Positions 14,744 through 64,000 of a stretch of DNA of 64,000 nt are shown in pieces. Where the stretch lies: positions 61,142 to 125,141 of the forward strand of contig NZ_BMMS01000027.1 of assembly GCF_014646055.1 (NCBI RefSeq), written 5' to 3'. The position numbers were made by a program, and so were the translations under genes. The notes beneath the pieces were generated by a model. The model saw only the letters and a program-made list of their open reading frames with translations. It did no database searches and was not told the origin of the DNA. This DNA comes from Wenjunlia tyrosinilytica (lineage in GTDB: Bacteria > Actinomycetota > Actinomycetes > Streptomycetales > Streptomycetaceae). Numbering within the stretch: position 1 is the stretch's first letter; every line of letters begins with the position of its first letter.

Positions 14744-14787
14744 GGCGTGTTTCCTTGGGACGGCAGGGAGTCTGGAGAAGGCGCGTG

Positions 14788-14807: not shown

Positions 14808-14822
14808 CGTGCGCGTCGGACG

Positions 14823-17311: not shown

Positions 17312-17382
17312 GACGTATGCCCCTCCTCGAGCAGCGGCCACGCACAACCGGTGCTGAGCCGCAGGACTGGATACGTTGACGC

Positions 17383-29114: not shown

Positions 29115-29313
29115 TTTCCCCGTTCCCGTACGCGCGTGGCCCGCCTGGTCGGCCCCGGCGATCCTGTCGCGGCGGCGCGGCATGCGGAAGCCACGCTCGA
29201 GCGCGCACCCGGGGGTAGCCGGATGACTAGGTCAACGTGTGCGCACGATGGGGGCTTTCGGTGGTCGTTGGGGCTTCGGATGATGGGGATCTCCTGGGCA
29301 GAAAGGACCACCG

Positions 29314-30513: not shown

Positions 30514-30545
30514 GACCTGACACACAGCCAGGAATAGGTAACCCT

Positions 30546-32638: not shown

Positions 32639-32676
32639 CAGGCGCGACGCGGAGCGAAACCAGGAAAGGACCAACC

Positions 32677-34286: not shown

Positions 34287-34312
34287 CCGGGCGGGAAGAT
34301 GTGGGGCCTGAC

Positions 34313-37833: not shown

Positions 37834-38736
37834 CTATCGTCCGGCCGGAACGAGGTCGGCGACCTCGGCGGCCACCTTTCCCAGCGAGATGACCGCGTTC
37901 TCGTTGTGCACGGCCGGCAGCGAGACGATGACGTGGTCAATGCCCAGTGCGGCCAACCGCTCAAGGTGCGCGACGGAGGCGGCCGGATCAGTGCGAGGGT
38001 CGTCCTTGAGCTTGAACTGGCTGAGCACGGTCTTCTCGATCTCCTCGTACGGACGCCCGAGGCGGTCGCAGTGCTCGCGCAGGACCGCGAGCTTGTGCGG
38101 TAGGTCCGGGGCGTCATAGAGGTTGCAGGCGTCGGCGTACTGCGCGACCAGCCGCAGCGTCTTCCGCTCACCGGTGCCGCCGACGAGGATCGGCGGGTGC
38201 GGCCGCGCCGTGTCCACCCTTCCGAGCGGCGGTGGGGAATTGAGCGGGCGGGCCAGTCGGTAGTGCGTCCCGATGTAGGGGGAGTCGTCGTTGGCGAACA
38301 TCCGGCCGGTGATCTGCAGGGTCTCCTCGAGACGCTCAAACCGCTCCGCCATCGGGGGGAATGTCACCCCGAGCCCGTCGTGCTCCTCCCGGTACCAGGC
38401 GGCGCCGATTCCCAGGTAGGCCCGCCCGCCTGACAGCACGTCGAGCGTTGTGACCAGCTTGCCCAGCAGGCCCGGATGGCGGTAGGTCACGCCGGTGCAC
38501 AGGGTGCCGAGGCTGATGTCGGACGTTAGTGCGGCGGCGAAGGAGAGCGCCGCGTACCCGTCCAGCATCGGGTCCTCGGCCCGGCCGTTGATCGTGACCT
38601 GGAAGTAGTGGTCCATCAGCCAGAGGCTGGCCAGGCCGTGCGTATCGGCGTCGCGGGCGATCCGGCCGAGAATCGGGCCGATCCGGGCAGGCCCACCGGG
38701 CCACCGGAAGGCGGGAACAGTCAGTCCAAGACGCAT
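37834..38736 (-). CDS. LLM-class F420-dependent oxidoreductase
   Basis: This 300-residue luciferase-like (bacterial luciferase fold) flavin/F420 enzyme starts at ATG 38736 behind AAAGGGG. Landmarks are MRLGLTVPAF, SLWLMDHYFQ, GTLCTGVTYRHPGLLGK and GGRAYLGIGAAWYREEHDG, typical of the F420-dependent LLM group. The C-terminal GIDHVIVSLPA is also usual. It is transcribed opposite to the NRPS genes, sharing a 190-bp divergent upstream region with the FAAL gene. It may reduce or oxidise a pathway intermediate. It is not closely similar to the LLM domains embedded in the two NRPS A domains. Confidence 0.9.
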   Translation of the reverse strand: MRLGLTVPAFRWPGGPARIGPILGRIARDADTHGLASLWLMDHYFQVTINGRAEDPMLDGYAALSFAAALTSDISLGTLCTGVTYRHPGLLGKLVTTLDVLSGGRAYLGIGAAWYREEHDGLGVTFPPMAERFERLEETLQITGRMFANDDSPYIGTHYRLARPLNSPPPLGRVDTARPHPPILVGGTGERKTLRLVAQYADACNLYDAPDLPHKLAVLREHCDRLGRPYEEIEKTVLSQFKLKDDPRTDPAASVAHLERLAALGIDHVIVSLPAVHNENAVISLGKVAAEVADLVPAGR

Positions 38737-38927
38737 GGCGAGACCCCTTTGCGGCGGCTGGCTTGTTGGTTATTCATCAAACTAGCCGAAATCGATGCCT
38801 TCAAGGTGCGCGGACGCGGGCTCGCAGTGGGGCTTCACTGTGCCGCAGCCGGAGTTCACGGGGGCTTCAGTCGGCGCTTGTAGCGTTACGGGACACGAAA
38901 GCTGATTGTGAGAAGGGTAGTCCAGGG

Positions 38928-40940
38928 TTGTTGGCGGAGACAGATCTCAACGGGGTGCTGAGGTGGCGTGCCGAGAACGATCCTGACGGCGTTCCCTACA
39001 CTTTCCTCAAGGGATTCCAGGGAAGCGAATTCACATCCGGTCAATCGCTAACCAACCATGAACTCTTGGTCCGTTCCAAGGCGTTGGCAGCTCGCATTCA
39101 GGAGGGCGCGAAGCCGGGGGACCGGACCCTGATCCTCAACCAGCCCGGGCTGGACTACATCGTCGGAGTCTTCGCGAGCATGCTCGCTGGGACGGTCGCC
39201 GTGCCGGCGTATCCGCCGGAGCAGACCCGGCTGAACCGGGGCCTGGAGCGCATCCGGGGCGTCGCCGACGATGCCCGTCCCAGCTGCGTCCTGGTGGACG
39301 ACGCGACGGCGGCCGCGGTCGGTGACGCTCTGCGGGCCGCGCTCCCCGAGGCGCGGTGGATCGACTCGACCGCCGCCGACCCAGAGCTCGAGGACGCCTG
39401 GCGGGAGCCGGGGACCGGATCGGCCGATCTTGCGGTGCTGCAGTACACCTCCGGCTCGACCGGGCACCCCAAGGGGGTAATGCTTTCGCACGGGAACTTG
39501 ATGCGGAATCTGCGCGCAGGGCGCGACGCCTACGGCATCGAAGGCCGGATGGACGGGGTTTTCTGGATTCCTCCCTACCATGACATGGGCCTCATCGGCG
39601 GAATCCTAATGACGCTTTTCTGTGGCGGGCGGGCCCGCCTCTTCGCGCCGTTCGCCTTTCTCCGGTATCCGCTGCGCTGGGTCCGGGCCATGTCCGAATT
39701 TGGCTCCTATGTCAGCGCGGCCCCGAACTTCGCGTACGAGATGGCGGCCCGTGCCGGTCGGGACGCCCCCGAAGAGGTCGCCCGACTGGATCTGAGCGGC
39801 TGGCAGGTCGCCATATCCGGCGCCGAACCGGTGCACTGGAAAACGCTCGAGGAATTCTCCTCAATATTCGCCCCGGCTGGATTCCGACGCGACGCGTTCC
39901 ACCCGTCCTACGGGTTGGCGGAGAACACGCTGGTCGTGACCGGCCGGCCCTGCGGCCGGTCCGTGGTGAGGCTGGATGCGGGCGAGCTGGAACGGCATCG
40001 GGTCCGGGAGACGGCTCCGGGGCCGACCGCGCGCACGGTGGTCGGGTGCGGCACCGGAGCCGATCCCGAGCAGCGGGTCGAGATCGTCGACCCGTGGACT
40101 GGACTCCGCTGCGCCGAGGACACTATCGGCGAGATCTGGGTGAGCGGCGGAAGCGTGGCACTGGGCTACTGGAACCGCCCGGAGGAGACGGAGTCGACTT
40201 TCCGCGCGTCCATCGGTGGTGTCGACGGGCCGTTCCTGCGGACCGGCGACCTCGGCTTCCTGCGGGACGGCGAGCTGTTCGTCACCGGCCGGTCGAAGGA
40301 CCTGGTCATCGTTCGTGGACGCAACCACTACCCACAGGACCTGGAGCGGACCGCGGAGGCGGCGCACCCTGGCGTGCGCTCCGGTCGGTGCGTGGCGCTC
40401 TCGGCCGACCACGAGGGCGCCGACGAACTGGTGGTCGCCGTCGAGGGGCCGCCAGCGGCTGACGAGAGAGTTCGCGCGGAGATCGCCGAGGCGATCAGGG
40501 CTGCGATCGGCGAGCAGCATGGGATCGCCGTGCACGCGGTTGCGTTCGTGCCGCGGGGCGGGATCCGCCGGACATCGAGCGGGAAGCTCCGGCGCTCCGC
40601 TGTCCGGGCTTCATATCTGGCCCACGAGTACGTCTCGCATACCCCTAGCCGGGCCCCCTACACTGCCCCGCGCGACGCGATCGAGCGGACCGTCGCCGCG
40701 ATCTGGAGCAGCGTCCTGGCCGTGGAACGGGTCGGAATCCACGACCAGTTCTTCGAACTGGGCGGGGATTCACTCAAGGCGGTCCGGCTGCTGGCCCGGC
40801 TGAACGCCAGCGAGGGCTACACGCTGACGCTGTCCGACGTGGCGAGCGCGCACACGGTGGAGGAGTTCGCGGATGTGGTCCGCAGGCGCGGCGGGCGCTC
40901 GGCGATCGCCGCACAGGACATCCAGATCGATCTCGGCTGA
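38928..40940 (+). CDS. Fatty acyl-AMP ligase fused to an acyl carrier protein (loading module)
   Basis: This protein of about 670 residues has an uncertain start: TTG 38928 is preferred, with GAGAAGGG upstream, and no ATG or GTG fits. The FAAL domain has YTSGSTGHPKGVMLSHGNLM and WIPPYHDMGLIGG. APNFAYEMAAR, RTGDLGFLRDGELFVTGRSK and a C-terminal SSGKLRRSA also fit; these are diagnostic of FAALs rather than acyl-CoA ligases. The C-terminal carrier domain has FFELGGDSLKAVRLL with the phosphopantetheine Ser. The enzyme activates a free fatty acid as acyl-AMP and loads it on its own ACP, giving a lipo-initiated assembly line. Chain length cannot be read from sequence. NRPS module 1 starts 23 bp downstream. 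Confidence 0.88.
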   Translation: MLAETDLNGVLRWRAENDPDGVPYTFLKGFQGSEFTSGQSLTNHELLVRSKALAARIQEGAKPGDRTLILNQPGLDYIVGVFASMLAGTVAVPAYPPEQTRLNRGLERIRGVADDARPSCVLVDDATAAAVGDALRAALPEARWIDSTAADPELEDAWREPGTGSADLAVLQYTSGSTGHPKGVMLSHGNLMRNLRAGRDAYGIEGRMDGVFWIPPYHDMGLIGGILMTLFCGGRARLFAPFAFLRYPLRWVRAMSEFGSYVSAAPNFAYEMAARAGRDAPEEVARLDLSGWQVAISGAEPVHWKTLEEFSSIFAPAGFRRDAFHPSYGLAENTLVVTGRPCGRSVVRLDAGELERHRVRETAPGPTARTVVGCGTGADPEQRVEIVDPWTGLRCAEDTIGEIWVSGGSVALGYWNRPEETESTFRASIGGVDGPFLRTGDLGFLRDGELFVTGRSKDLVIVRGRNHYPQDLERTAEAAHPGVRSGRCVALSADHEGADELVVAVEGPPAADERVRAEIAEAIRAAIGEQHGIAVHAVAFVPRGGIRRTSSGKLRRSAVRASYLAHEYVSHTPSRAPYTAPRDAIERTVAAIWSSVLAVERVGIHDQFFELGGDSLKAVRLLARLNASEGYTLTLSDVASAHTVEEFADVVRRRGGRSAIAAQDIQIDLG

Positions 40941-40963
40941 CAGCCGGCGGGGGAAGGGGCGGG

Positions 40964-43900
40964 ATGGTTCCCGAGAGCATCGCAGAGCTGGTGGGCTCGC
41001 TGGCCGCACAGGGTGTGGGGGTCTTCCTGGAGGAGGGTCGGCTGCAGTGCCGCGGCCCGCGGGGCGTCCTCTCGGCCGAGCTCCTGGAGACCATACGCGG
41101 CCACCGGGACGAGATCGTGCGGTTCCTGGAGCGCGAACACGATCCCTCGCGGCCGCACCCCCTGACCGCAGGTCAGCAGAGCCTCCTGCTGCACCAGCGA
41201 CTGACGCCGAACAGCGTCGCCTACAACCTCGCGTTTGCGGCGAACGCCGACAACGCGCTGGACGCGGAGTCCCTGGACGCTGCCCTCCGCGAAGTGGTCA
41301 CCCGCCACTCGATCCTGCGGACCACGTACGCGTGGCAGGACGGCGAGCCGACCCAGCGCACCCAGCCGGTTCCTGCGCGGATTCTCGACACCCAAACGGT
41401 AGCGGCCGAGCTGGTGGAAAGCACGGTCGAGGCGTTCATGGACCGCCCGTTCGACCTCGAGCGCGAGGCGCCGATCCGTGCCGCGATCATCTGTACCGGC
41501 CTCGAGGATCAGCGGCCGGTGATCGTCCTGGTGGTCCATCACATCGCGGCGGACCTCTGGTCCATCGACGTAATCGTCGAGCAGTGGCTCGGCGGGTACC
41601 GGAACCGCGTGGACAATGGCGGCCCGCGGTCGGCGCCGATTGGCAGCAACTTCATCGACCAGGTACGCAGCGAGGCGGCCTGGCTGGCCAGCTCAGCGGC
41701 CGACGTGGAACGCAGTCTCGCATTCTGGCGCGACCGGCTCGGCGATGAACCGGCCGTGCTGAACCTGCCGTTCGACCGGCCGCACCCGGCCGTGCAGAGC
41801 TTCGGCGGCGGCCGGATTTCCCTTGAGCTGGACGCGGCTCTGTCCACGCGTATCGACGCGCTCGCGCGCAAAGCCGATGTTACGCCTAATATGCTCTTTC
41901 TGTCGGCCTTCCAGGTGCTGCTCCAGAAGTACAGCGGTTCGGACGACGTCGTGGTCGGCACACCGGTCGCGGGGCGCCGAACCCCCCCGGTACAGAACGC
42001 GGTGGGCTTTTTCGCCGACCCCGTAGTGGTTCGCGCCGATCTCCGCGGCGACCCCCCCTTTGCCCACGTTCTCGACGCCACGCGGGCGAACCTGCTGAAC
42101 GCCCTTGATCACCCCTATCCCTTCCCGCTGCTCGTCGAACAGCTCAACCCCGTCCGCGATCCGAGACGGTCACCGCTCTTCCAGGTCATGTACGTCTGGC
42201 AGCAGACGCGCCAGCGTCATGACCAGGTGCGGCTGACCCCGCTCTCCTCGTCGGGCCAGCGCGGTGCCGCGTACGACCTGGTCCTGTCGGTCGGACAGTC
42301 CGGCGGGCGCTTCAGCTGCTCCTGGAGCTACAACCTCGGCCTCTTTAATCGGTCGACGGTTGAGCGCATGGCGCACGCTTTCCTCGAGATCCTCGGCGGG
42401 ATAGTGGCGCGCCCCTCGGACCCAATCTCGCTGCTCCCCTCGATGTCCGCCGACGAGCTGGGCGCCGTCCGTCGTGTGTCGGCCGGGCCGGTCACGGAAC
42501 TGTGCGAGCCACCGTGGCCCGAGCAGTTCGACTCCCAGGCGCGGCGGACGCCGACGGCGACGGCGCTGGTCTGCGGGGACGAGACACTGACCTACCAGCA
42601 ACTCGCCGACCGCGTGGGCCGATGCTCCGCTGCACTTCGGGCACGGGGCGTGGCCGAGGAGGTGCGTGTCGGCCTATGTATCGAGCGATCGGCCGCCCTG
42701 GTAGTGGCGATGCTGGCGATCGCCCGGGCTGGCGGGGTCTATGTCCCCCTCGATCCGGACTACCCGGCGGACCGCCTCGCCCACATGGCGTCGGACTCGG
42801 GGATTGCCCTGTGCGTTGCTGACGAGCGAGGCAGGCTGGCCCTCCGGTCCCACCGCGGCGAAGTTCTCGACCTCGATGTGCTGATTGGCGAAGCGGCGGC
42901 CCTGGAGCCATCGCCAGCCGCTGCGGTCTCGGGCGACGCGCTCGCGTACTTGATCTACACGTCGGGATCGACCGGCCGCCCCAAGGGAGTGATGGTCACA
43001 CGGCGCAACGTCGCCAACCTCTTCGCAGGCCTCGACGGTTCCGTGGGGGAGGGGCCGGGAACGGCGCAGGCCCAGCCGGTCTGGCTCGCCGTGACGAGCG
43101 TCTGCTTCGACATCTCGGTACTTGAACTGCTCTGGACCCTCTGCCGGGGCCACCAGGTAGTGATCGAGCCCGAGTTGTGGACCGCGCGTGCCCGGCCCGT
43201 TCCGTCCCGGGACAGGCGGAAGGTCGACTTCAGCTTGTTCTACTTCGCCGCCGAACCGGGCCCGCGACGCGGCAGCGAGGTCTACCGACTGCTCCTCGAC
43301 GGGGCCCGGTTCGCGGACACCCACGGTCTGCACGCGGTCTGGCTGCCTGAGCGGCACTTCCACGCCTTCGGCGGCGCCTACCCGAATCCGTCCGTTCTGG
43401 CGGCCGCCGTCGCGGCGGTGACGGAGCGGGTCGGGATCCGGGCCGGGAGCGTCGTCCTGCCGCTGCAGGACCAGCTGCGGGTCGCCGAGGAATGGGCCGC
43501 GGTCGACAACCTGGCGGACGGACGCGTCGGTCTGTCGTTCGCCTCCGGCTGGCAACCCGACGACTTCGTGCTGGCGCCCACGCGCTACGCCGACCGTCGC
43601 GAGACGATGTGGCAGGACATCGAGACCGTCCGCAGGCTCTGGCGCGGCGAGTCCGCACCCCGAACCAACGGCGTCGGGGCTGAGGTCCAGGTCACCACGC
43701 TGCCCCGGCCGGTCCAGCTCGAGCTCCCGGCCTGGGCGACTGCGGCAGGAAGTGACGAAACCTTCCGCCAGGCCGGCGAACGCGGCCTGAACATCCTTAC
43801 CCACCTGCTGGGCCAGAACATCCACGAGCTGGCGCGGAGGATCCGTGTCTACCGGGAGTCGAGGGCCGCCGCCGGGCACGACGAAGGCGTCGTGACTCTG

Positions 43901-45451
43901 ATGCTGCACACCTTCGTCCACCCGGACGAGGAACTCGTGCGCGAGGCCGTCACCGAACCCTTCAAGAACTACCTCCGGAGTTCCATCGACCTGATGCGCG
44001 GCCTAGCCAAGGGGCTCGGCCTCGACCCGGTCCAGCACCAGGACCTGATCGTCAACCATGCGTTCGACCGGTATTTCCGGACCAGCGCCCTGTTCGGCAC
44101 CCCCGAGTCCTGCGCCGACTTCGCCCGCGAGCTGGCGAACATCGGCGTCGACGAGATCGCCTGCCTCATCGACTTCGGAGTCGGCGACAAGCAGGCGCTC
44201 GACGCGCTGCGCAACATCGTGGCCGTGCAGCACGCAGTCAGCAGTGGCCCGGGTGGCCGCACGCCCACCGTGTCGGAGGCGATTGCGCGGCACGGCGTCA
44301 CCCACCTGCAGTGCACCCCGGCCTTCGCGGGGCTTCTGCTGCTTGAACGAAAGGGCGCGCCGACGGAAAAGGGCCCGCTGCGCCGGCTCCTGGTCGGAGG
44401 GGACGCCGCGCCCCCCGAGCTCGCGGGGCGCCTGCGAGACACGGGCGTGACGGAGGTCTTCAACATGTACGGACCGACTGAGACCTGCGTCTGGTCGGCG
44501 GTCCAGCAGCTCGAAACCGACCGGCTGGGCCGGGTGACCGTTGGCGGACCGATCGCCAACACGACCCTCCAGGTTCTCGACGCCCGCCTGCAGCCGGTCC
44601 CGGCCGGAGTGCCCGGCGAACTCCACATTGGCGGCGCGGGCGTCGCACGAGGGTACTGGAATAGGCCCGGGCTGACGGCGGACCGGTTCATACCCGATCC
44701 GTTCGCCACCCGGACCGGCGCGCGGATGTACCGGACCGGCGACATCGTCCGCTCGCTCGGCGACGGTCGTCTGGAGTTCCTCGGTCGCGCCGACCACCAG
44801 GTGAAGGTGCGGGGATACCGCATCGAGCCAGGCGAGATCGAGAATGTGCTCGGTACGCACCCCGGGATCGACAGCTGCGCCGTGGTCGCCCGGCGGGACC
44901 GCGGCGGCGACGCCGCCCTGGTCGCGTTCGTCGTCCCCCGTGCGGGCACGGAGTGGGCAGAGTGGAGCGTCCGGGCGCACGCGAGGCGGCTGCTGCCCGA
45001 GCACATGGTGCCGTCGCAGATCGTCGACGTGGAAGGGCTGCCGTTGACGCTCAACGGGAAGGTCGACCGGGCAGCCCTGGTGGCACAGGCTAACGAGGTG
45101 GACGGGTCGCGCCGCGCCGCCTATGTGGCGCCGCGCAACCGGATCGAGGACTCCCTCCAGCAGATCTGGCAGGAACTGCTCGAACGGCCCGGCGTCGGTG
45201 TGCACGAGAACTTCTTCGAGATCGGTGGCCACTCGCTTCTCGCGGCGAAGCTGCACGCGCGGATCGTCGCGGCGGAGCTGGGCGACATCGAACTCGTCGA
45301 TCTCTTCAGTCACCCGACCATCGCAGGCCTCGGGGCACGGCTCGGCGATGGCGGCGACGCCGCGAACGTGCGGGTCCGGAGTATTGACAGCAGGGTGAGC
45401 AGGCAGCAGGCCGCCGCGCGTCGGCAGCAGCGCAGGAGGCAGGGCTCATGA
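40964..45451 (+). CDS. NRPS module 1: docking-C-A[LLM]-PCP, glycine-like code
   Basis: This 1495-residue NRPS has ATG 40964 preceded by GGGGGAAGGGG. Domains: TubC-type docking domain (1-60), condensation (about 65-490; HHIAADL at 191-197, final Gly replaced by Leu), adenylation from about 520, and PCP (Ser1424 in IGGHSLLAAKL). The A domain is split after motif A4 (FDISVLELLW, 715-724) by a luciferase-like monooxygenase of about 340 residues (about 752-1090; VDFSLFYFAAEPG, GLSFASGWQPDDF, EPFKNYLRSS), then resumes as VTHLQCTPAF. Specificity residues D716, I717, L720, Q1116, L1143, G1145, M1168, V1176, W1177 give DILQLGMVW, close to the glycine code DILQLGLIW. The LLM probably oxidises the tethered residue. 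The PKS gene overlaps by 4 nt. Confidence 0.93.
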   Translation: MVPESIAELVGSLAAQGVGVFLEEGRLQCRGPRGVLSAELLETIRGHRDEIVRFLEREHDPSRPHPLTAGQQSLLLHQRLTPNSVAYNLAFAANADNALDAESLDAALREVVTRHSILRTTYAWQDGEPTQRTQPVPARILDTQTVAAELVESTVEAFMDRPFDLEREAPIRAAIICTGLEDQRPVIVLVVHHIAADLWSIDVIVEQWLGGYRNRVDNGGPRSAPIGSNFIDQVRSEAAWLASSAADVERSLAFWRDRLGDEPAVLNLPFDRPHPAVQSFGGGRISLELDAALSTRIDALARKADVTPNMLFLSAFQVLLQKYSGSDDVVVGTPVAGRRTPPVQNAVGFFADPVVVRADLRGDPPFAHVLDATRANLLNALDHPYPFPLLVEQLNPVRDPRRSPLFQVMYVWQQTRQRHDQVRLTPLSSSGQRGAAYDLVLSVGQSGGRFSCSWSYNLGLFNRSTVERMAHAFLEILGGIVARPSDPISLLPSMSADELGAVRRVSAGPVTELCEPPWPEQFDSQARRTPTATALVCGDETLTYQQLADRVGRCSAALRARGVAEEVRVGLCIERSAALVVAMLAIARAGGVYVPLDPDYPADRLAHMASDSGIALCVADERGRLALRSHRGEVLDLDVLIGEAAALEPSPAAAVSGDALAYLIYTSGSTGRPKGVMVTRRNVANLFAGLDGSVGEGPGTAQAQPVWLAVTSVCFDISVLELLWTLCRGHQVVIEPELWTARARPVPSRDRRKVDFSLFYFAAEPGPRRGSEVYRLLLDGARFADTHGLHAVWLPERHFHAFGGAYPNPSVLAAAVAAVTERVGIRAGSVVLPLQDQLRVAEEWAAVDNLADGRVGLSFASGWQPDDFVLAPTRYADRRETMWQDIETVRRLWRGESAPRTNGVGAEVQVTTLPRPVQLELPAWATAAGSDETFRQAGERGLNILTHLLGQNIHELARRIRVYRESRAAAGHDEGVVTLMLHTFVHPDEELVREAVTEPFKNYLRSSIDLMRGLAKGLGLDPVQHQDLIVNHAFDRYFRTSALFGTPESCADFARELANIGVDEIACLIDFGVGDKQALDALRNIVAVQHAVSSGPGGRTPTVSEAIARHGVTHLQCTPAFAGLLLLERKGAPTEKGPLRRLLVGGDAAPPELAGRLRDTGVTEVFNMYGPTETCVWSAVQQLETDRLGRVTVGGPIANTTLQVLDARLQPVPAGVPGELHIGGAGVARGYWNRPGLTADRFIPDPFATRTGARMYRTGDIVRSLGDGRLEFLGRADHQVKVRGYRIEPGEIENVLGTHPGIDSCAVVARRDRGGDAALVAFVVPRAGTEWAEWSVRAHARRLLPEHMVPSQIVDVEGLPLTLNGKVDRAALVAQANEVDGSRRAAYVAPRNRIEDSLQQIWQELLERPGVGVHENFFEIGGHSLLAAKLHARIVAAELGDIELVDLFSHPTIAGLGARLGDGGDAANVRVRSIDSRVSRQQAAARRQQRRRQGS

Positions 45452-48400
45452 ACAATCAGCCCGCGGGCGACGACGGCGTTCAGCCCATCGCGGTCATCGG
45501 CATGGCTGGCCGCTTCCCGGGGGCGGCCGACCCGGAGGCGTTCTGGCGGAACATCGCAGCCGGAGTCGAGTCACTCGTCCGCCTCTCGGAGGACGACCTG
45601 ATCGCGGCCCGCGTCCCGGAGGAGCGGTACCGCGACCCACACTACGTGCGGGCCGCCACTGTGCTAGACGGCATGGACCGGTTCGACGCTGGGTACTTCG
45701 GCTTCACCCCGATGGAGGCGTCGATCCTCGACCCGCAGCACCGGCTGCTCCTCGAGTGCACTCAGGAGTTGTTCGACACAGCCGGGTACGACTCGTGCCG
45801 CCTGGATAAGACCACCGGTGTCTACGTCGGTGTCGGGTTCCCCTCGTACCTTGTCAACAACCTGTTGGCCCGCCCCGAGATCATCGAACAGGTCGGGATG
45901 CAGCGGATCTTCTTCGCCACCGATAAAGGGTTTGCGCCCACCAGGATCTCGCACAAGTTCGATCTGACCGGTCCGAGCATCGGTGTCGACACGGCGTGTT
46001 CAACCTCGCTCGTCGCGGTCCACCAGGCTTGCAGGGCGCTGCTGGCCTACGACTGCGACCTCGCGATCGCCGGTGGCGCCAGCTCGGTCTTGCCCAACGG
46101 CGTCGGTTACCAGTACCACGAGGGCGGCATCAGTTCTCTAGACGGGCACTGCCGGGCGTTTGACGCCCGTGCCGGGGGCACCCGGTTCGGCAGTGGCGTG
46201 GGGCTCGTCCTGCTCAAGCGGCTGGAGGACGCACTGGCCGACGGCGATCAGGTGCTCGCCGTGATCCGGGGTTCTGCGGTCAACAACGACGGGGCGTCGA
46301 AGGCGGGATTCACCGCGCCGAGCGCGACCGGCCAGGCCCTCGTCGTGGCGGAGGCCCTGGCCTTCGCCGAGGTGTCGCCGGATTCGGTCGGCTACGTCGA
46401 GGCCCACGGAACGGGGACCGTCATCGGTGACCCGATCGAGATCTCCGGTCTGACCCGGGCCTTCCGCAAGGGGACAGACCGACGGCAGTACTGCGCCATC
46501 GGGTCGGTCAAGACGAACGTCGGCCACCTCGATGTCGCGGCCGGCGTGAGCGGACTGATCAAGACCGTCCAGGCTCTGCGGCACGCGGAGCTGCCGCCCA
46601 GCCTGCATTGCGAGCAGCCCAACCCGGCGATCGACTTCGCGAGCAGCCCGTTCTACGTGAACACCGAGCTGCGCCCCTGGACGTCCTCCAGCGGTCCCCG
46701 GCGGGCCGGAGTGAGTTCGTTCGGGATCGGCGGCACGAACGCCCACGTGGTGCTGGAGGAGGCTCCCCCCCGGGGGGCTTCGGGGCCATCGCGCGCGGAG
46801 CATCTGGTGGTGGTCTCCGCCCGCTCGGCCGAGGCACTCGACCGCGCCCGGGCCGACCTCGCCGCCGCGTTCCGGAACGCAGTCGATGAGGCTCTGCCCG
46901 ATCTGGCCTTCACGCTCAGCGTCGGGCGGCGGGCGCACGCCCACCGTCAGGCCTTCGTCTGCCGCACCCGCGCGGAGGCGGTCGACCTGCTCGAAGGGGC
47001 CAGACCCTCAGCCGTCCGGTCGGGGATGCACACGGGGGATGCGCCGCGGATCGCGTTCCTCTTCCCCGGGCAGGGCGCCCAGCAAGTGCGGATGCTGGCC
47101 GACCTCCAACGCGGGGAGGAGGTCTTCCGGCGGGAGGTCGAGCGGTGCGCCATGCACGTCGAGAAACGTCTCGGCCTCGACATGTGCGAGGTGATCTACC
47201 CCGTTGGTCAGGGCGGCGACGCCCGTCTCGATGAGACATGGCTCACCCAACCCGCCCTGTTCGCGGTCTCATTGGCGACGGCCCGGCTCTGGCAGTCCTG
47301 GGGCGTCCAGCCGGACGTGCTGCTCGGACACAGTCTCGGTGAGTATGTCGCTGCGACGGTCGCTGAGGTCTTCGGCCCGGAGGACGCCCTGGACCTGGTG
47401 ATCGACCGGGCGCGCTTGATGAACGGTCTGCCCGCCGGGGCGATGACCGCGGTGTCGCTCGACGCGGCAGCGCTCGAACCGCTCCTCGGGCAGTGCTCTC
47501 TGGCGGCCGTCAATGCCCCTGGGCAGTGCGTCGCCTCGGGGCCGCTCGCGGCCGTCGAGGAGCTCGAGGCCCGGATGGCGGCCGCCGGCGTCGTGCACCG
47601 CAGGCTCCGCACCTCCCACGCGTTCCACTCGGCCATGCTGGACGAGGTCGCCGGAGCGTACCGGGAACGTGTGGCGCAGGCCCGGCCGGGTGTGCCGCGC
47701 ACACCGATCGTGTCGTGTCTGACGGGCCGCGTCCTGGAGCCCGGCGAGAGCTCCGATCCCGCGTACTGGGCCCGGCAGATGCGGGGCACGGTCAGGTTCG
47801 CCGAAGCGGTGCGGACCATCGCCGAGGACCCGCACCGCCTTTTCCTGGAAGTGGGGCCCGGCCGAACCCTGACCTCGATGGTGCGGAGGTCCGGCATCGC
47901 ACCCGAGCGCGCCCTCGCCTCGGCCCGGGGCGACGGCGACTCCCGGACAGACGGTGAGGCCCTGTTGGACGCGCTCGGCGCCCTCCACTGCGCCGGGGCT
48001 CCGGTTGCCTGGGAGCGGTTCTGGGCGGGCGAGCGGCGGCACCGCCTGCCGCTGCCGAGCTACCCCTTCGAGCGGCAGCGTCACTGGATCGACCCGAACC
48101 CGGCGGAGCGGCCCGCCCTCGAAATCCCGGCGGCGAGTCGGGACGGCGAGACTCTGTCCGCCCGTACCTGGCGCCCGGCCCCGCTCGATCCGGGTCCGTC
48201 CAAGCGGCCGGCCGGGGGCGACTGGCTGCTGCTGGTGGCGGACGACGCGCTCGGATGTGCGCTGGAGGCCCGCCTCGCCCAGCGCGGGGCGTCGGTGGTG
48301 CGGATCCGGCCGGGTGTCGAACTCGCCGAGACCGCTGAAGAGTTCGTCGTAGACCCGGCACGCCCGGACCTCGTCGAGCGCCTGCTCGAGGCACTTGAGG

Positions 48401-53418: not shown

Positions 53419-53420
53419 CG

Positions 53421-56400: not shown

Positions 56401-59400
56401 TCCAGGTGAGCGCGCTATTCGAGGCACCCACTGTGGCCGCACTGGCCGAGCAGGTGGAGGCAGGGCGCGCGGCCGCGAGCGTGGGCGGCGCCAGCGACGC
56501 GATCACGCCGGTCGACCGGACCGGCCCTCTACCGCTGTCGTACGCGCAGCGCCGGATCTGGATGCTTTCCCAGGTCGATGGTGCGAACACCGCCTACAAT
56601 ATCCCGGCCGCCATCCGCATCGGCGGGCCTCTGGACATCGACGTGCTGGTGCGAGCGCTAGGCGAGGTGGTGGCCCGGCACGAGGCGCTGCGCACCAACT
56701 TCGTCCAGGTGGACGGTGTCCCGGCGCAGGTGGTGAGGGAGGCGGCGCCGATCGAGGTGCCGATGGTGGATATCCGCGCGACGGACGTGGCGGCACGGGC
56801 GCAGGCGCACGCATCCCGGCCGTTCGACCTGGAGCGGGACGAGCTGTTCCGGGCCGCGGTCCTGCGGGTCTCGGCGGAGGAGCACGTCTTGCTGCTCTGC
56901 CTCCACCACATCGTGTCCGACGGCTGGTCGACCACAGTGCTCTGGCAGGAGATCGCGAGCCTCTACACGAACTTCCGCGCCGGCCAAGAGTCACCGCTCA
57001 AGCCGCTGCCGAGCCAGTACGCCGACTTCGCGGCGTGGCAGAACCGCTGGCTGGACAGCCCGGAGATCGCCCCTCAGCTCACCTACTGGACGCGGCAACT
57101 CGACGGCCTGCCAGCACTGTTGGAGCTGCCAACAGACCGGCCCCGGCCTTCGCTGCAGGGCGGCGAAGGGGCGACGCTGGCGATCACCGTCCCCTCGGAG
57201 ACCGTCCTCGCGCTGCGCGGACTGTCCGTCGAGCAGCGGGCGACGATGTTCATGGTGATGCTCACAGCGTTCAACGTGCTGCTCGCCCGGTACACCGGGC
57301 AGCACGACATCGCGGTCGGTACGCCCGTCGCCAACCGGACGCGTGCGGAGGCCGAGGGGCTCATCGGGTGCTTCTTCAACACCCTCGTGATCAGGACTGA
57401 CCTGTCCGACGACCCCACCTTCTCCGACTTGCTCGGCCGGGTCCGGGACGTGGTGATCGCCGCGCTGGCGCACCAGGACTTGCCGTTCGAGCGCCTCGTC
57501 GAGGTTCTCAACCCCGCCCGCAGCCCCGCGCACACGCCACTTTTCCAGACCCTTTTCGTCTACCAGCCCGCGCCGGCCGGCGGGGCCGCCATGGACGGAT
57601 TGAGGGTCGAGCGGCTGGCCCTGCCTGGCACCGTCGCCAAGTACGACCTGACCCTCGACCTCGTCGAGGACGAGGACGGCGTCCGCGGGCGCATCGAGTA
57701 CCGCACTGATCTCTTCGACTGCGGCACGATCGAGCGGATGGCCGGGCACTTCACCAGGCTGCTCGACGCGATCGTCCGCGACCCGATGAGCCGCGTCGCC
57801 GAGCTTGACCTGCTGACCGGGGCCGAGCGGGAGCTGGTGCTTGCGGAGTGGAACAGCGAGCACCGGGCGCAGGCCGACGGGCTGCCGGTGGCGGACGCGT
57901 TCGAGGAACGGGTCCGGTCGTGCCCCGACGCCACGGCTCTGGTCTTCGGTGACCGCTCGCTCACCTACCGCGAGCTGGACCGGGCGGCGAACCGGCTGGC
58001 TTGCCGGCTTCGCGCGAAGGGGGTCTCCGAGAACGTGCTGGTCGGCCTCTGGACGGAGCGCTCGATCGAGCTGGTCGTCGCCATGCTCGCCGTGCTCAAG
58101 GCCGGCGGCGCCTATGTCCCGCTCGACCCGGCCGCGCCGACCGCGCGGGTCGCCGTCTTGGTTGAGGACGCCCGGATCGGACTGGTGATCGCCCCGACGG
58201 CCCGGGCGGCGGAGCTGCCGCCGGGGGTCGACGTGGTCGCCCCGGAGGTGGGTCCGTCGGAGGAGGTGGAGCCGGCGATGAGGACGACCGGTCCGGAGAG
58301 CCTCGCGTACGTCATCTACACCTCGGGATCAACCGGCCGGCCCAAGGGTGTCATGGTCGCCCAGCGGAACCTGGTCTCCTTCTTCGCCGCGATAGACAGC
58401 CGACTGGACAACCCGACGCCGGGCACCTGGCTCGCCCTGACCCACCACACCTTCGACATCTCGGTCCTTGAGCTGCTGTGGACGCTCACCCGGGGCTTCA
58501 AGGTGGTGCTGGTCGGCGACGAACTGGTGCTCAGCGCGCCGCCGCGGCCAGCGGGCACCCGGCCCGTCGACTTCAGCCTGTTCTACTTCGCGAGCGATGC
58601 TGGCGAGCGCGGAACGGACAAGTACCGACTGCTGCTGGAGGGCGCTCAATGGGCCGACGAGCACGGTTTCGCCGCCGTGTGGACACCGGAGCGGCACTTC
58701 GGCGCCTTCGGGGGGCTCTACCCGAACCCGGGCATCACCGCCGCGGCACTTGCGGCCTCGACCACCCGAATCGGCATCCGCACTGGCAGTCTCGTCCTCC
58801 CGCTCCACAACCCGATCCGGGTCGCCGAGGACTGGGCGGTGATCGACAACCTGTCCAACGGACGGGTTGGTCTTTCGATCGCCTCGGGCTGGCAGCCGCA
58901 CGACTTCGCGCTTGCGCCGCACAACTTCGCCGATCGCAAGGAGGTCATGTTCCGTGACCTCGAGGTGGTGCGGAGCCTTTGGCGAGGAGAGGCGGTCCGG
59001 GCGATCTCCGGCACCGGTGAGGAGATCGAGGTCCGGACGCTGCCGCGGCCGGTGCAGCCCGAGCTGTCGGTATGGGTCACCGCGGCCGGCAACCCGGAGA
59101 CCTTCCGCCGTGCCGGAACGGTCGGCGCGAATGTGCTCACCCATCTGCTGGGCCAGTCGGTCGAGGAGATGGCCGGTGCGCTCGAGGTCTACCGGGCCGC
59201 CTGGAGCGCCTCAGGGCGCCCCGGACGCGGGCATGTCACCTTGATGCTGCACACCTTCGTCTCGGACGACGAGGAATACGTGCGGCGGACCGTGCGTGAG
59301 CCGTTCAAGAACTACCTCCGTCAGTCGGCGGACCTCGTGCGGCCCGTCGCCCGTGATCGCGGGCTTGATGTCGAAGGACTTGACCAGAGCGATCTCGACG

Positions 59401-62123
59401 CGCTGCTCGACCACGCGTATGACCGCTACTTCGGCAGCAGCGGCCTCTTCGGCACGCCGCGAGGGTGCGCCGCGACGGTCGACCGGGTGCAGGCCGCTGG
59501 CGTGGACGAGATCGCCTGTCTCGTGGACTTCGGGGTGGCCGAGGACGAGGTGCTGGCGAGCCTCGAGCACCTGGACGAGCTCCGCCGGATCACCTCCGCG
59601 GGCACGACCGCGGAACCTCGGGTAGACATCGCTGGACTGATCGAGCAGCACTCCGTCTCGCACCTCCAGTGCACCCCGTCGCTGGCGGCGCTGCTCGCCG
59701 CCGACGTGGACGCGCGGGCGGCCCTGCGGCGGCTCGACTGGCTGCTCGTCGGTGGTGAGGCGCTCCCGCATCTGCTGGCAGAGAAGCTCTCCGCCGCGGT
59801 CGATGGCCGGGTGCTCAACGTCTACGGCCCGACCGAGGCCACGATCTGGTCCACCAGCCACCTGGTATCCGGTGCGGACAACTCGATCGGACGTCCCCTT
59901 AGCAACACCCGGACGTACGTCCTCGACGAGCGGTGCCGACCGGTGCCGGTCGGCGTGCCTGGCGAACTGTGCATCGGCGGGGACGGTGTGGCAGTCGGCT
60001 ACCTGCACCGGCCTGAGCTCACCGCCGAGCGCTTCGTCACCGACCCCTACGCATCGGACCCAGCGGCCAGGATGTACCGCACCGGCGATATTGTCCGCCA
60101 CCGCCCGGGCGGTGAACTCGAGTTCATCGGCCGGCGGGACCACCAAGTGAAGATCCACGGGTTCCGGGTAGAACTCGGCGAGATCGAGGCGGCGCTCGGC
60201 AGCGCCCCGGGCGTGCAGGCCGGGGCCGTTGTTGCGGACGACGACGGGCGAGGTGGCAAGCGGCTCGTCGCCCACGTCGTCATGTTCGGGCCGTTCCAGG
60301 CCGCGGACCTACGCCGCCACTTGGAGGAGCAGCTTCCTCGGCACATGGTGCCCGCTCGTATCGTCGAGTTGGAATCGATGCCGCTGCTGCCGAGCGGCAA
60401 GGTGGACCGTAGCGCGCTCCCGGGGGTCGCCGCTGACCAGCCGACGAACGGTGAGGCGATCGCCCCGAGCACCCCGACCGAGCGCGAACTCGCGAGGATC
60501 TGGGCCGAACTTCTCAAGCAGCCGACGATCGGCGCGCACGACAACTTCTTCGAGCTCGGCGGCGACTCCATCATCGCGATCCAGCTGGTCGCGCGGGCCA
60601 GGCACGTCGGGCTGACGATCTCGGCGCGCGACCTGTTCCGGCACCAGACGCTCACCGAACTCGCGGCGGTGGCCCGGGAGGGCACCACGACCCACGCCGA
60701 GCAGGACCTGGTCCTCGGCGAGGGCGGTCTGGCACCCATCCAGCACTGGTTCTTCGAGCAGGAGCTCGCTGACCCTCACCACTACAACCAGGCCATCCTG
60801 GTGGACGTCACCAGCGGGCGGCTGGACCTCGGGTCGCTCGCCTGCGCTCGCGACGCCCTACTGCGGCACCACGACAGCTTGCGCAATCGGTTCGTCCATG
60901 GCGCCGACGGTTGGCGGCAGTGGACCGGCGCCCCCGAGCCCGTCCCCGACCCCGTCGACTGCCTCGACCTGACGGACCTGCCGCCCGCGGCCTGGCCCGA
61001 GGCCGTCGCCACGATGCAGCGGGACGCCCACGGCGCCCTGGATCTCGTGGACGGCCCAATGTTGCGCATGGTCTACCTCGACTTCGGCGCGCAGCGCGCG
61101 GACCAGCTGTTCGTGGTGGCCCACCACACGGTCGTCGACGGTATCTCCTGGCGCATTCTCATGGAGGACCTCCAGACCGCCTACGAGGCAGAGCGTCAGG
61201 GCCGCGGTGCCCGGCTGCCGCTCAAGACGACCTCGTACCAGGAGTGGGTCTGCCGGCTCACCGCCGACGCCGACTCGGCGCGGACCCGTGCGGAACTCGA
61301 CTACTGGGCCGATCAGATCGAGCCGCCGACAGCCGCGCTGCCACGCGACCGCGCCGGGGAAAACACCGAGGGAACCGTTCGGAGGGTCCGCGCGGAGTTC
61401 ACCGCCGATGAGACCATCGCGCTCGTCCGGGACCTTCCGGCAGGACACCGGATCGGAGTACCCGAGCTGCTGCTCACCGCGCTGGCCGACGCGTGCGCGC
61501 CATGGACCGGCTCGCGCTCGCTGCTCGTCGACGTGGAGGGTCACGGCCGGGAAGAACTCTTCGACGACATCGATGTGTCCCGCACCGTCGGGTGGTTCAG
61601 CGCGATCTATCCGCTCCGGATCACTCTGGCCGTACCGGGGGAGGACAGCCTGCGGGCCGTCCGGGAACAGATCCGCGCCGTCCCGCGCAGCGGGGTGGGC
61701 TTCGGCTTGCTGCGCCACCTCTCGCCAGACGAGTCGGTACGGGCGCGCCTGAGGGACGGACGCCGTGCGGAGCTCGTCTTCAACTACCTGGGCCAAGCCG
61801 ACGCCTCGCTGCTGCCTGACTCGATATTCCAGCTGTCCGGTGATCCGGTCGGTGCGCCGCACGGCCCCGCGCAGCGGCGTCGGCATCTCGTCAACGTCAA
61901 TGGGATCGTGGTGGACGGCCGACTCCGCGTCGACTTCGCGTACAGCCAGGCGGTGCACGATCCGACGACCGTCGAGGCGCTCGTGGCCCGATTTACCGCC
62001 GCGACGCGCGAGCTGCTTGGCGAGTGCCTCACCGGGGGCGTCCGGTTCGTGCCGTCCGACTTCCCGGACATCGATCTCACGCAGGGGGAGCTCGAAGAGC
62101 TCCTCACGGAACTTGAGAGCTAG
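53421..62123 (+). CDS. NRPS: condensation-like-A(Asp)-PCP-C-A[LLM](Gly-like)-PCP-E
   Basis: 2900 residues. The N-terminal 430 are condensation-like, but the HHxxxDG site reads APGVFLD (about 127-133), so it cannot catalyse normally and may be an interface domain for the TauD hydroxylase. A1 code D628 L629 T632 K671 V696 G698 H722 V730 G731 (DLTKVGHVG) is an aspartate code. PCP1 Ser976. C domain HHIVSDG from 1162. A2 is split after FDISVLELLW (1678-1687) by a second LLM (about 1715-2055). Its code D1679 I1680 L1683 Q2083 L2109 G2111 V2134 I2142 W2143 (DILQLGVIW) is glycine-like. PCP2 Ser2383 sits in LGGDSIIAIQ, the form common before E domains. A C-terminal epimerisation domain (about 2430-2890) has HHTVVDGISW at 2568. 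Confidence 0.93.
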   Translation: MNDAGFRLSPQQAHTWQHVPKGWAQCRISLEGPSAADDVARAVRDVVRRHESLRARLATVPGIAVPLQTVDEETELAWVEDVLPGDAAAAAAAVEQAAAEDRTRPLGGAMRARLLSGTDHAELVLTAPGVFLDRRSFVSVFEELAARLGGSAEDDEPLQYLDAAEWLHEQAATADARNRMAAWNRHELAAARVLPTPFEGGTADGVGVVQVPSDPPWAQATERVAAELGCSLGALVLGAWQLLLWRLTAAERLVTGFVPTTRGLDELDAVVGNFASPVPVLSAMEPGMSFEALVARLDRAMGEASTAQFSFDGTAAEGTAPFGYSFCELPAEASAGRLRLALRSVATAPVGATLHLDAACTPDGWLDLRILHDTRLVSERHAARLAGQFGSVLRSVTETPRALIGDLALADQDETARVLGAGTGPLVERSLLRLAHARFERCADERPERLAVVCGGQRLTYGEVEARANRLAHALRSARVGPDVPVALMVERSVDYVVGLLAVLKAGGAFVPIDPGLPAERIAQTLAEVRPAVAITHRGLTGFVAAAGVRVLDLDDAAALAAWPATRAAATVHPENLAYVIFTSGSTDRPKGVAMPHRAICGYVEGVLPEFCLGEDAVLASLATPAADLGHTAVFGALCTGRSLLLAAPEEVLASDLLARRFREQPVDLLKIVPSHLAALLGAQDAADLLPRSCLVLGGEELTAPLVEQVRRLRPGLRVIDHYGPTETAVGALVSTVADRLSGPIPIGTPLPNYRAWILDARLRPVLQGAPGELYIAGDGVARGYWEQPGRTAERFLPDPFAVEPGSVMYRTGDLARQRPDGAVVFLGRADDQVKIRGNRVELGDIETVLRRDKRLADAAVVARDDGAGMHLVAYVAPRRGTFVQGPELAEELRCQLPEYMVPGAIVALQALPLTPNGKLDRSALPAPDPSASRTAPYVAPRTGTETLLAEVWEDILGCGKVGSRDDFFRELGGNSLDATRAVARVRAATGVALQVSALFEAPTVAALAEQVEAGRAAASVGGASDAITPVDRTGPLPLSYAQRRIWMLSQVDGANTAYNIPAAIRIGGPLDIDVLVRALGEVVARHEALRTNFVQVDGVPAQVVREAAPIEVPMVDIRATDVAARAQAHASRPFDLERDELFRAAVLRVSAEEHVLLLCLHHIVSDGWSTTVLWQEIASLYTNFRAGQESPLKPLPSQYADFAAWQNRWLDSPEIAPQLTYWTRQLDGLPALLELPTDRPRPSLQGGEGATLAITVPSETVLALRGLSVEQRATMFMVMLTAFNVLLARYTGQHDIAVGTPVANRTRAEAEGLIGCFFNTLVIRTDLSDDPTFSDLLGRVRDVVIAALAHQDLPFERLVEVLNPARSPAHTPLFQTLFVYQPAPAGGAAMDGLRVERLALPGTVAKYDLTLDLVEDEDGVRGRIEYRTDLFDCGTIERMAGHFTRLLDAIVRDPMSRVAELDLLTGAERELVLAEWNSEHRAQADGLPVADAFEERVRSCPDATALVFGDRSLTYRELDRAANRLACRLRAKGVSENVLVGLWTERSIELVVAMLAVLKAGGAYVPLDPAAPTARVAVLVEDARIGLVIAPTARAAELPPGVDVVAPEVGPSEEVEPAMRTTGPESLAYVIYTSGSTGRPKGVMVAQRNLVSFFAAIDSRLDNPTPGTWLALTHHTFDISVLELLWTLTRGFKVVLVGDELVLSAPPRPAGTRPVDFSLFYFASDAGERGTDKYRLLLEGAQWADEHGFAAVWTPERHFGAFGGLYPNPGITAAALAASTTRIGIRTGSLVLPLHNPIRVAEDWAVIDNLSNGRVGLSIASGWQPHDFALAPHNFADRKEVMFRDLEVVRSLWRGEAVRAISGTGEEIEVRTLPRPVQPELSVWVTAAGNPETFRRAGTVGANVLTHLLGQSVEEMAGALEVYRAAWSASGRPGRGHVTLMLHTFVSDDEEYVRRTVREPFKNYLRQSADLVRPVARDRGLDVEGLDQSDLDALLDHAYDRYFGSSGLFGTPRGCAATVDRVQAAGVDEIACLVDFGVAEDEVLASLEHLDELRRITSAGTTAEPRVDIAGLIEQHSVSHLQCTPSLAALLAADVDARAALRRLDWLLVGGEALPHLLAEKLSAAVDGRVLNVYGPTEATIWSTSHLVSGADNSIGRPLSNTRTYVLDERCRPVPVGVPGELCIGGDGVAVGYLHRPELTAERFVTDPYASDPAARMYRTGDIVRHRPGGELEFIGRRDHQVKIHGFRVELGEIEAALGSAPGVQAGAVVADDDGRGGKRLVAHVVMFGPFQAADLRRHLEEQLPRHMVPARIVELESMPLLPSGKVDRSALPGVAADQPTNGEAIAPSTPTERELARIWAELLKQPTIGAHDNFFELGGDSIIAIQLVARARHVGLTISARDLFRHQTLTELAAVAREGTTTHAEQDLVLGEGGLAPIQHWFFEQELADPHHYNQAILVDVTSGRLDLGSLACARDALLRHHDSLRNRFVHGADGWRQWTGAPEPVPDPVDCLDLTDLPPAAWPEAVATMQRDAHGALDLVDGPMLRMVYLDFGAQRADQLFVVAHHTVVDGISWRILMEDLQTAYEAERQGRGARLPLKTTSYQEWVCRLTADADSARTRAELDYWADQIEPPTAALPRDRAGENTEGTVRRVRAEFTADETIALVRDLPAGHRIGVPELLLTALADACAPWTGSRSLLVDVEGHGREELFDDIDVSRTVGWFSAIYPLRITLAVPGEDSLRAVREQIRAVPRSGVGFGLLRHLSPDESVRARLRDGRRAELVFNYLGQADASLLPDSIFQLSGDPVGAPHGPAQRRRHLVNVNGIVVDGRLRVDFAYSQAVHDPTTVEALVARFTAATRELLGECLTGGVRFVPSDFPDIDLTQGELEELLTELES

Positions 62124-62138
62124 GAACGATCGACCCAT

Positions 62139-64000
62139 ATGAACGAGAAGACCGACATCGAGGCCATCTACCCTCTGTCACAGCTCCAGCACGCTATGCT
62201 GCTCAAGTCGCAGCTCGCGCCCAACAGCGGTGTGTACATCGTCCAGCTGTCGTTCGACATCTGCGGTCCGCTTGACCTGAAGGCCTTCCGGGCGGCCTGG
62301 AACGAGCTGACCGCGCGGCACGCCGTACACCGGACGCTGTTCGCACGCCTCGACCAGAGCCAGCCGCTCCAAGTGGTACGGCGCAGCGTGGAGCTCCCGT
62401 GGACAGAGGAGGACTGGTCGGCGCTGTCGGCCCCGGAGCAGGACGCGCGCTTCGACGCCTGGTTCGCGGACGACCGCACCAGGGACTTCGACCCCGCCCA
62501 GGCTCCGCTGATGCGATGTTTCCTGGCCCGGCTCGCGGACCACCGGCACCGGTTCTGCTGGACCCGCCACCACGCGATCTCCGACGGCTGGTCGATGGCC
62601 AACGTCGCAGCCGAGGTCCTCCAGGACTACCGTGACCGGACCGTCGGCACCCCGTTCACGTTCGGCCCGGTCCCGCAGTACCGCGAGTACATCGCCTGGT
62701 CCCGGGCCCAGAACGTCGACCGGGCCGAGGAGTTCTGGCGGCGGTCGCTCGCAGGCGTCCAGGGGCCGACGCTTCTCGGGGTCGACCGGTCGCCGCAAAC
62801 CGGCTACCTGGCGCCCGGCCGCATCGACAGGCGGCGCGTGCTGCTCTCACCGGAGAGCACGCGGGCCGTCTCCGCCGCGGCCCGGCGCGAGCGGTTGACC
62901 CCCGGCACCTTCGTCCAAGGTGCATGGGCGATCCTGCTCCGCCGCTATGGGGACGAACGGGATGTCATGCTGGGCGTGGCGGCTTCGGGCCGGCCGCCGG
63001 TGATCGGCGGCGTGGAGAAGATGATCGGCTGCTTCGTTAACACACTCCCGGTCCGCATCGAGGTCGACGATGACGCGATGGCGATCGACTGGCTGCGGCA
63101 GCTGCAGGCGGCCCAGGTCGAGCGTGAGGAGTACGGCTATGTCTCTCTCGCCCAGATCCGTCGTTGGACCGGCGTCCGAGGCGATGTCCCGCTGTTCGAG
63201 TCGCTCCTCGCCTTCGAGAACTTCCCGATCGGGGAGGTGCTCGAGGCCGTCGGCGGGCCGATCCGGGTCGAGGCGATCCGGATGTCCGAGCAGACCAGCT
63301 TCCCGCTCACGCTCACGGTCGCCCCCGGTGACCAGCTGTCGATCCAACTCGCCTTCGACGAAAGTCGGTTTGACGAGGCTGCGATCGAGGGCATGCTTGA
63401 CCACTACGCGGTGATCCTCCAGGCGCTGACCGGGGCTCCGGGCCGGATCCGCGACCTGCCGATCGCGGGGCCCGAAGAACTCGGACGACTGCTCGGCGAC
63501 TTCAATGCGGCCAGGGTCGAGATACCTGACCTGCCGGCGCACCGGCTCTTCGAGGCCCAGGCGGCGAGCACGCCCGGTTCCGTCGCCCTCGTCGCAGGGC
63601 GGACCGAGCTGACCTACGCCGAGCTGAACGCCCGGGCCGATCGGCTCGCCCGACGGCTGCGCGGCGCGGGGGTCACCCCGGGAGCGCTGGTCGGCGTTTG
63701 TCTCGAACGGGACGCCGAGCTCCCTGTGGCCCTGCTCGCGGCGTGGAAGGCTGGCGCGGCCTACCTCCCGCTTGATCCCGCGTATCCGCCGTCCAGGCTG
63801 GACCAGATCCTCGGCGACGCGGCGCCGGCGGCGGTGCTGGCACAGCAGTCGACCCATGGCGCGCTGGCTGGCTCGTCGTCGAACACGCTGCTGATTGACC
63901 GTTCGGACAGCGAGGCGGACGACGCCGAGGACGCTGGCCCTGCCTCCGCGGAGGTCCACGAGGAGTCGGTGGCCATCGTCATCTACACCTCGGGTTCGAC
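62139..64000 (+). CDS. NRPS: C-A..., cut by window end
   Basis: The open frame starts at ATG 62139, 15 bp after the previous stop, and runs past the end (620 residues seen). The N-terminus IEAIYPLSQLQHAMLLKSQL lacks a docking extension. The condensation domain has HHAISDG starting near residue 144, followed by YGDERDVMLGVAASGRPP and MIGCFVNTLPVRI. Because an E domain comes just before, a DCL-type C is expected. An adenylation domain begins about residue 465 (LTYAELNARADRLARRL, YLPLDPAYPPSRL), and the window ends in core motif A3 (YTSGS). The specificity residues, any carrier domain and chain release lie outside. No thioesterase is seen in the window. Confidence 0.92.
   Translation, partial: MNEKTDIEAIYPLSQLQHAMLLKSQLAPNSGVYIVQLSFDICGPLDLKAFRAAWNELTARHAVHRTLFARLDQSQPLQVVRRSVELPWTEEDWSALSAPEQDARFDAWFADDRTRDFDPAQAPLMRCFLARLADHRHRFCWTRHHAISDGWSMANVAAEVLQDYRDRTVGTPFTFGPVPQYREYIAWSRAQNVDRAEEFWRRSLAGVQGPTLLGVDRSPQTGYLAPGRIDRRRVLLSPESTRAVSAAARRERLTPGTFVQGAWAILLRRYGDERDVMLGVAASGRPPVIGGVEKMIGCFVNTLPVRIEVDDDAMAIDWLRQLQAAQVEREEYGYVSLAQIRRWTGVRGDVPLFESLLAFENFPIGEVLEAVGGPIRVEAIRMSEQTSFPLTLTVAPGDQLSIQLAFDESRFDEAAIEGMLDHYAVILQALTGAPGRIRDLPIAGPEELGRLLGDFNAARVEIPDLPAHRLFEAQAASTPGSVALVAGRTELTYAELNARADRLARRLRGAGVTPGALVGVCLERDAELPVALLAAWKAGAAYLPLDPAYPPSRLDQILGDAAPAAVLAQQSTHGALAGSSSNTLLIDRSDSEADDAEDAGPASAEVHEESVAIVIYTSGS

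Follow-up and report, generated by a model that had tools for sequence, protein, structure and literature searches.

The window analysed here is a 64,000-nucleotide stretch of the Wenjunlia tyrosinilytica assembly GCF_014646055.1 (contig NZ_BMMS01000027.1, here C27; G000:C27:61142-125141), and it carries an intact, collinear assembly line of nonribosomal peptide synthetase (NRPS) and polyketide synthase (PKS) genes that starts at about 38.8 kb with a fatty acyl-AMP ligase (FAAL) and runs beyond the window end, past which the contig extends a further 4.3 kb. Domains were called by Pfam and NCBIfam scans of open reading frames (ORFs), motifs were verified by script, and the specificity codes of the adenylation (A) domains were read by hand from the A4-A5 region. 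These scans revealed the order FAAL-T / C-A[LLM]-T / KS-AT-(dead KR with C-MT)-T-C-TauD / interface-A-T-C-A[LLM]-T-E / C-A-T, in which T is a carrier, C a condensation, KS a ketosynthase, AT an acyltransferase, KR a ketoreductase, C-MT a C-methyltransferase and E an epimerization domain, and A[LLM] is an A domain that contains an inserted flavin monooxygenase of the luciferase-like (LLM) type. All domains claimed by an earlier model reading of the bare DNA (the sequence-only reading) were recovered by Pfam, NCBIfam and motifs, including the fused TauD, the methyltransferase inside a dead KR and the FAAL start. The core genes are as follows.

38763..40940, +, FAAL with C-terminal T (AMP-binding, DIP2-like C-terminal domain and PP-binding in Pfam)
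40964..45451, +, NRPS N1: TubC_N docking, C, A[LLM] (Gly), T (Pfam; code DILQLGMVWK)
45448..53418, +, PKS1/NRPS: KS, AT (malonyl), C-MT-split dead KR, T, C, TauD (Pfam; motifs)
53421..62123, +, NRPS N2: interface-like C, A (Asp), T, C, A[LLM] (Gly), T, E (Pfam; codes DLTKVGHVGK and DILQLGVIWK)
62139..65330, +, NRPS N3: C, A (DPCSNALVYK), T (domain scan; L009:781-3972), continuing past the window end at 64000

The line opens with a FAAL-type adenylate-forming domain and its carrier, with fatty-acid--AMP ligase models among the best NCBIfam matches; the ORF has a TTG start at 38763, and a start at 38928 is equally possible. We take the codes DILQLGMVWK and DILQLGVIWK to denote glycine and DLTKVGHVGK aspartate. 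The five core genes recur at full length and in the same order in two Kitasatospora genomes (G209, where they lie on one contig, and G187) at 62-67% identity (63-65% for the FAAL); both genomes share the codes for Gly and Asp, the motif of the C-MT and the E domain. This conservation rules out the cluster as an artefact, chimera, chance arrangement or misassembly. Among 70 Kitasatospora genomes only these two matched a TauD-domain probe at E <= 1e-110; the line is rare and common to at least three actinobacterial species. The order that the sequence-only reading had drawn (fatty acyl, oxidised Gly, a methylated and unreduced malonate, beta-hydroxy-Asp, oxidised Gly with stereocontrol, then a further residue) finds support in each of the domains and in its conservation in the two other species, and we consider this probably to be an orphan FAAL-started line making a lipopeptide-polyketide by a collinear route.

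Predicted oxidised glycine modules and the fate of the hydroxyl

43229..44155, +, LLM insert of the N1 A domain, between A4 and A5 (Bac_luciferase, TIGR04020, PuwE oxygenase 6ket)
58575..59510, +, LLM insert of the second Gly A domain, in N2 (Bac_luciferase; TIGR04020 506 bits; 6ket 389 bits)
60729..62027, +, E domain behind the second oxidised Gly (HHTVVDG and FNYLGQ motifs)

Both inserts interrupt A domains with a Gly code between A4 (FDISVLELLW) and A5 (MYGPTE or VYGPTE), and score 470 and 506 bits against TIGR04020 of the MupA/Atu3671 family (cut-off 244). Their closest solved structure is the PuwE oxygenase 6ket, on which the N1 A[LLM] as modelled by AlphaFold (mean predicted local distance difference test 76.7, predicted template modelling [TM] score 0.52) superposes over the insert at 3.2 A, with a TM score of 0.88 of the target and 50% identity, while the shell around the insert matches A domains.

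Precedents for such modules differ in what becomes of the oxidised glycine. The Dickeya solani protein SolF likewise has a Gly-specific A domain into which a flavin monooxygenase is inserted, and solanimycin B contains alpha-hydroxyglycine; unlike the line here, however, SolF has its insert reported at a8-a9, is the single such module, follows a polyene polyketide start and has no E domain reported behind it (PMC10204066). Against the SolG model, N3 of the present line did not reach the cut-off score. In the myxothiazol and melithiazol pathways the monooxygenase splits a Gly A domain at a4-a5, as here, and cleavage follows (PMC10204066). Because the LLM inserts occupy this A4-A5 place, whereas the hydroxyl-retaining insert of SolF does not, oxidative cleavage in the manner of MtaG and MelG stays alive at one or both glycines: the upstream chain would leave as a primary amide, a glyoxylyl group would stay on the carrier and the product would be much shorter. 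The known cleaving modules directly precede a thioesterase (TE), where the amide is released, whereas both A[LLM] modules here sit inside the line and pass the chain to a KS and to a C domain, and the second is followed by an E domain. Cleavage would also leave that E domain without a stereocentre, yet its motifs are retained in G209 and G187, and we consider this outcome unlikely.

A retained hydroxyl accounts better for the E domain, which would otherwise be pointless after glycine and implies that the second Gly must become chiral. Since a canonical E domain follows the Gly module in all three species, it provides the strongest internal evidence and supports the view that the second glycine would keep its alpha-hydroxyl, a feature that is very rare in linear peptides, with few cases named (PMC10204066).

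The sequence-only reading had described the two A[LLM] modules as duplicates, which is misleading as to their evolution. A tree of LLM domains (54 rows) placed the first inserts of the three species in one clade and the second inserts in another, with the first-insert clade as the sister group of further A[LLM] domains from Kitasatospora (96/82 support), and these separate orthologous clades rule out a recent tandem duplication within the cluster. The line thus combines two old A[LLM] lineages. Those sister domains belong to Kitasatospora clusters (L055, G161, G166) that share the A[LLM]-T to KS-AT hand-over but have another module set; the parts that were read contain no FAAL, TauD or second A[LLM]. 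Of the 394 genomes of the host's family, 169 encode TIGR04020 domains, either fused or free-standing, so the oxidising unit itself is common.

Predicted beta-hydroxy-aspartate and methylated ketide

52522..53382, +, TauD-type Asp beta-hydroxylase domain, fused behind a C domain (Pfam TauD)
49048..50127, +, C-MT domain inside the KR (best solved relative CurJ, E 2.6e-55)

Immediately before the Asp A domain, N2 begins with a C-like domain that has no HHxxxDG, and together with the TauD domain that ends PKS1 this forms the arrangement of interface-associated beta-hydroxylation. The TauD is 52% identical to the fused hydroxylase of the cyanochelin B cluster (Leptolyngbya sp. NIES-3755, AP017310) and 37% to its stand-alone one, and it groups with the fused enzyme in a tree built by a quick method (98% support in the Shimodaira-Hasegawa-like approximate likelihood ratio test). 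Following Reitz et al., the residue made by that enzyme was assigned as L-threo (2S,3S) (PMC12628792), and membership of the same clade predicts L-threo-beta-hydroxy-Asp for the product here.

The closest Streptomyces relatives of the TauD are stand-alone genes with 65-68% identity; of the three clusters read, two contain a stand-alone LLM as well. In these clusters (L200-L208; G248, G400 and G337) the stand-alone TauD (66-68% identity) sits beside an Asp-type NRPS with an interface-like start, and in G248 and G337 the stand-alone LLM is accompanied by a KS.

The likeness to cyanochelin B extends to the FAAL start, LLM-type and C-MT domains, and the C-TauD fusion followed by interface-A(Asp)-T, where the C domains are 47% identical. 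In that cluster, unlike here, the LLM sits in the PKS part rather than inside Gly A domains, and the product has two beta-hydroxy-Asp residues, a thiazoline and an ethanolamine end. The homologous FAAL start, C-MT module and C-TauD/interface-A(Asp) pair speak for a cyanochelin-like lipopeptide metallophore whose beta-hydroxy-Asp, and perhaps the oxidised units, would bind iron. Cyanochelins carry two beta-hydroxy-Asp residues (PMC12628792), whereas the sequenced part of this line holds a single Asp module; furthermore, receptor and iron ATP-binding cassette (ABC) genes for siderophore uptake lie beside the cyanochelin cluster on its plasmid, whereas the genes examined around this one include exporters but no uptake system. 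On balance a metallophore seems very doubtful, slightly more so than cleavage at glycine.

In PKS1 the AT motif HAFH is of the malonyl type, and the C-MT, a CurJ-type domain within the KR region, has the HAT motif VVHAT in all three genomes. The KR lacks the catalytic S-Y-N set and its Rossmann motif is degenerate. These features support a malonate unit that would be C-methylated (with one or two methyls) and left as an unreduced ketone. O-methylation is not favoured, as the best solved relatives are of the C-MT type and no StiE-type O-methyltransferase was among the matches.

Line end and predicted product

As the sequence-only reading had noted, the line is cut by the window end. Downstream of N3, which continues to 65330, lie a class V pyridoxal phosphate (PLP) enzyme, a type II thioesterase and a KS that reaches the contig end.

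65333-66541 (window-extended coordinates), class V PLP enzyme, after N3

The thioesterase (L009:5196-5985) falls into two halves in different reading frames, through either an error in the draft assembly or a genuine frameshift. No counterpart of the PLP enzyme was seen in the parts of G209 and G187 that were read, and therefore the products probably differ between species.

Evidence for how the line ends came from G209, which added no further NRPS module to the core but holds on the opposite strand a second PKS (PKS2; KS-AT-KR-T-KS-AT), a flavoprotein and a T-TE. The orthologue of this flavoprotein in the present genome (69% identity) is on contig C43, whose end begins with the same AT C-terminus as in G209 (DWAALHEGRTPRR...YAFDTKRYWIDAP), fused to a T-TE and followed by the flavoprotein. 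Because C43 opens at an AT end matching G209 and carries a T-TE, the line most likely continues from C27 to C43 over a gap of roughly 6 kb, as estimated from G209. The genome thus does have a release domain, and its absence in the sequence-only reading is due to the window end and an assembly break. No contig bridging the PKS2 gap was found. We also considered the flavoprotein as a halogenase, for which the case is weak: the WxWxIP-like motif is WIWLIP in G209 and a degenerate CIWVMP here.

Taken together, the domains would give the following route. The FAAL, judging from its family, would adenylate a fatty acid and load it onto its own carrier; N1 would add glycine, which its LLM would hydroxylate at the alpha carbon as in the solanimycin and myxothiazol precedents; and PKS1, from the state of its domains, would add one malonate, C-methylate it and keep the ketone. 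The C domain of PKS1 would then join the chain to Asp on N2, where the fused TauD, paired with the interface domain, would act in the manner of its clade to form the L-threo-beta-hydroxy residue, after which N2 would add, hydroxylate and epimerise a second glycine. N3 would add one residue, presumably Ala-like in Kitasatospora, where we take the code DLFNNALVYK to be Ala-like, and PKS2, with the domain content of G209, would add two ketide units and reduce the first to an alcohol before the T-TE releases the chain. The predicted core would be acyl-alphaOHGly-[C-methylated ketide]-betaOHAsp-alphaOHGly-X-two ketides.

The sequence directly shows the order of domains, the A-domain codes, the dead KR, the conservation and the T-TE on C43; we infer the chemistry of each step, that the hydroxyls are kept, the configurations and the link between C27 and C43. 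Several points weigh against this route. The A-domain substrates were assigned by hand, and the N3 code (DPCSNALVYK) differs from that of the Kitasatospora N3. This assembly lacks about 6 kb of PKS2, whose module count is borrowed from G209. Finally, the A4-A5 monooxygenases that act on Gly in the myxothiazol and melithiazol pathways bring about cleavage, and no hydroxyl is kept there (PMC10204066).

The acyl group raises a further alternative, namely that it serves as a temporary leader that is later cut off, as in some FAAL-started actinobacterial pathways, and that the final product is not a lipopeptide. The acyl leader of naphthyridinomycin is removed. Naphthyridinomycin is among the FAAL-associated products (PMC11837247), which speaks for a leader, but a search, not an exhaustive one, of the genes shared by this genome and G209 turned up no dedicated peptidase or amidase. 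We rate a removable leader as improbable, on a par with cleavage at glycine.

Returning to the collinear lipopeptide-polyketide, its parts are each known separately, as the sequence-only reading had stated and as the papers and A[LLM] clusters examined bear out. The same domain order was found neither as a product or cluster in the open papers searched, a comparison that lay outside MIBiG, nor among the other A[LLM] loci examined. This is compatible with an orphan line that is a rare, new combination of parts with known precedents. Tentatively, and with a little more credence than we give a removable leader, we suggest that the E domain could set the configuration of an alpha-hydroxyglycyl thioester, creating stereodefined N-acyl hemiaminals that flank the beta-hydroxy-Asp and whose electrophilic carbons might become trapped within the chain, yielding a new cyclised lipopeptide scaffold; the Asp amide nitrogen might close a 5-acylamino-tetramate, or the Asp hydroxyl an oxazinanone. 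With two predicted alpha-hydroxyglycine modules, one of which has an epimerase, the system offers a direct test of whether A4-A5 monooxygenases leave the hydroxyl and whether its configuration is controlled, and the cluster on one contig in G209 makes it tractable for expression.

Accessory and neighbouring genes

23811..25616, -, ABC exporter half-transporter (Pfam ABC_membrane/ABC_tran; 910-bit homologue beside the FAAL in G209)
25613..27346, -, partner ABC exporter half-transporter (Pfam; 954-bit homologue beside the FAAL in G209)
35599..37773, +, Streptomyces antibiotic regulatory protein (SARP)/AfsR-type regulator (BTAD and NB-ARC; 778-bit homologue near the G209 cluster)
37834..38736, -, F420-dependent-type LLM oxidoreductase (TIGR03560 above cut-off; 502-bit homologue directly after PKS2 in G209)

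The cluster includes the two ABC exporters and the F420-type LLM oxidoreductase, both kept in Kitasatospora. The half-transporters would export the product under regulation by the SARP, which the sequence-only reading had placed at 35824-37773; its presence was confirmed by the BTAD domain, and its extent here begins earlier, at 35599.

A second valyl-tRNA synthetase gene (alt_ValS, NF000540, 1448 bits) lies at 20492-23065, 0.7 kb from the exporters, and a different ValS-like copy (32% identity) is on contig C1. The alt_ValS is a possible self-resistance gene, but it does not accompany the cluster in the parts of G209 and G187 that were read. The interval 28476-35476, which separates the exporters from the SARP, holds genes for a DegT-type sugar aminotransferase and for glycosyltransferase-like, GatZ-like and Eis-like GNAT proteins, which were not found near the Kitasatospora clusters.

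Further upstream, Type I-B-like cas genes (cas3, cas5, cas7/DevR) occupy 11138-17689, two 35-nt CRISPR-like repeats spaced 67 nt apart lie at 7890-7991, and an IS110 transposase at 8824-10152 sits between them. Contig C43 also carries a cas-like gene set, as judged by eye (L161, about 1-9200 of the locus). Ergothioneine genes are found at 1486-6297, where egtA, egtC and egtD score above cut-off and egtB presumably lies between 2688 and 4544.

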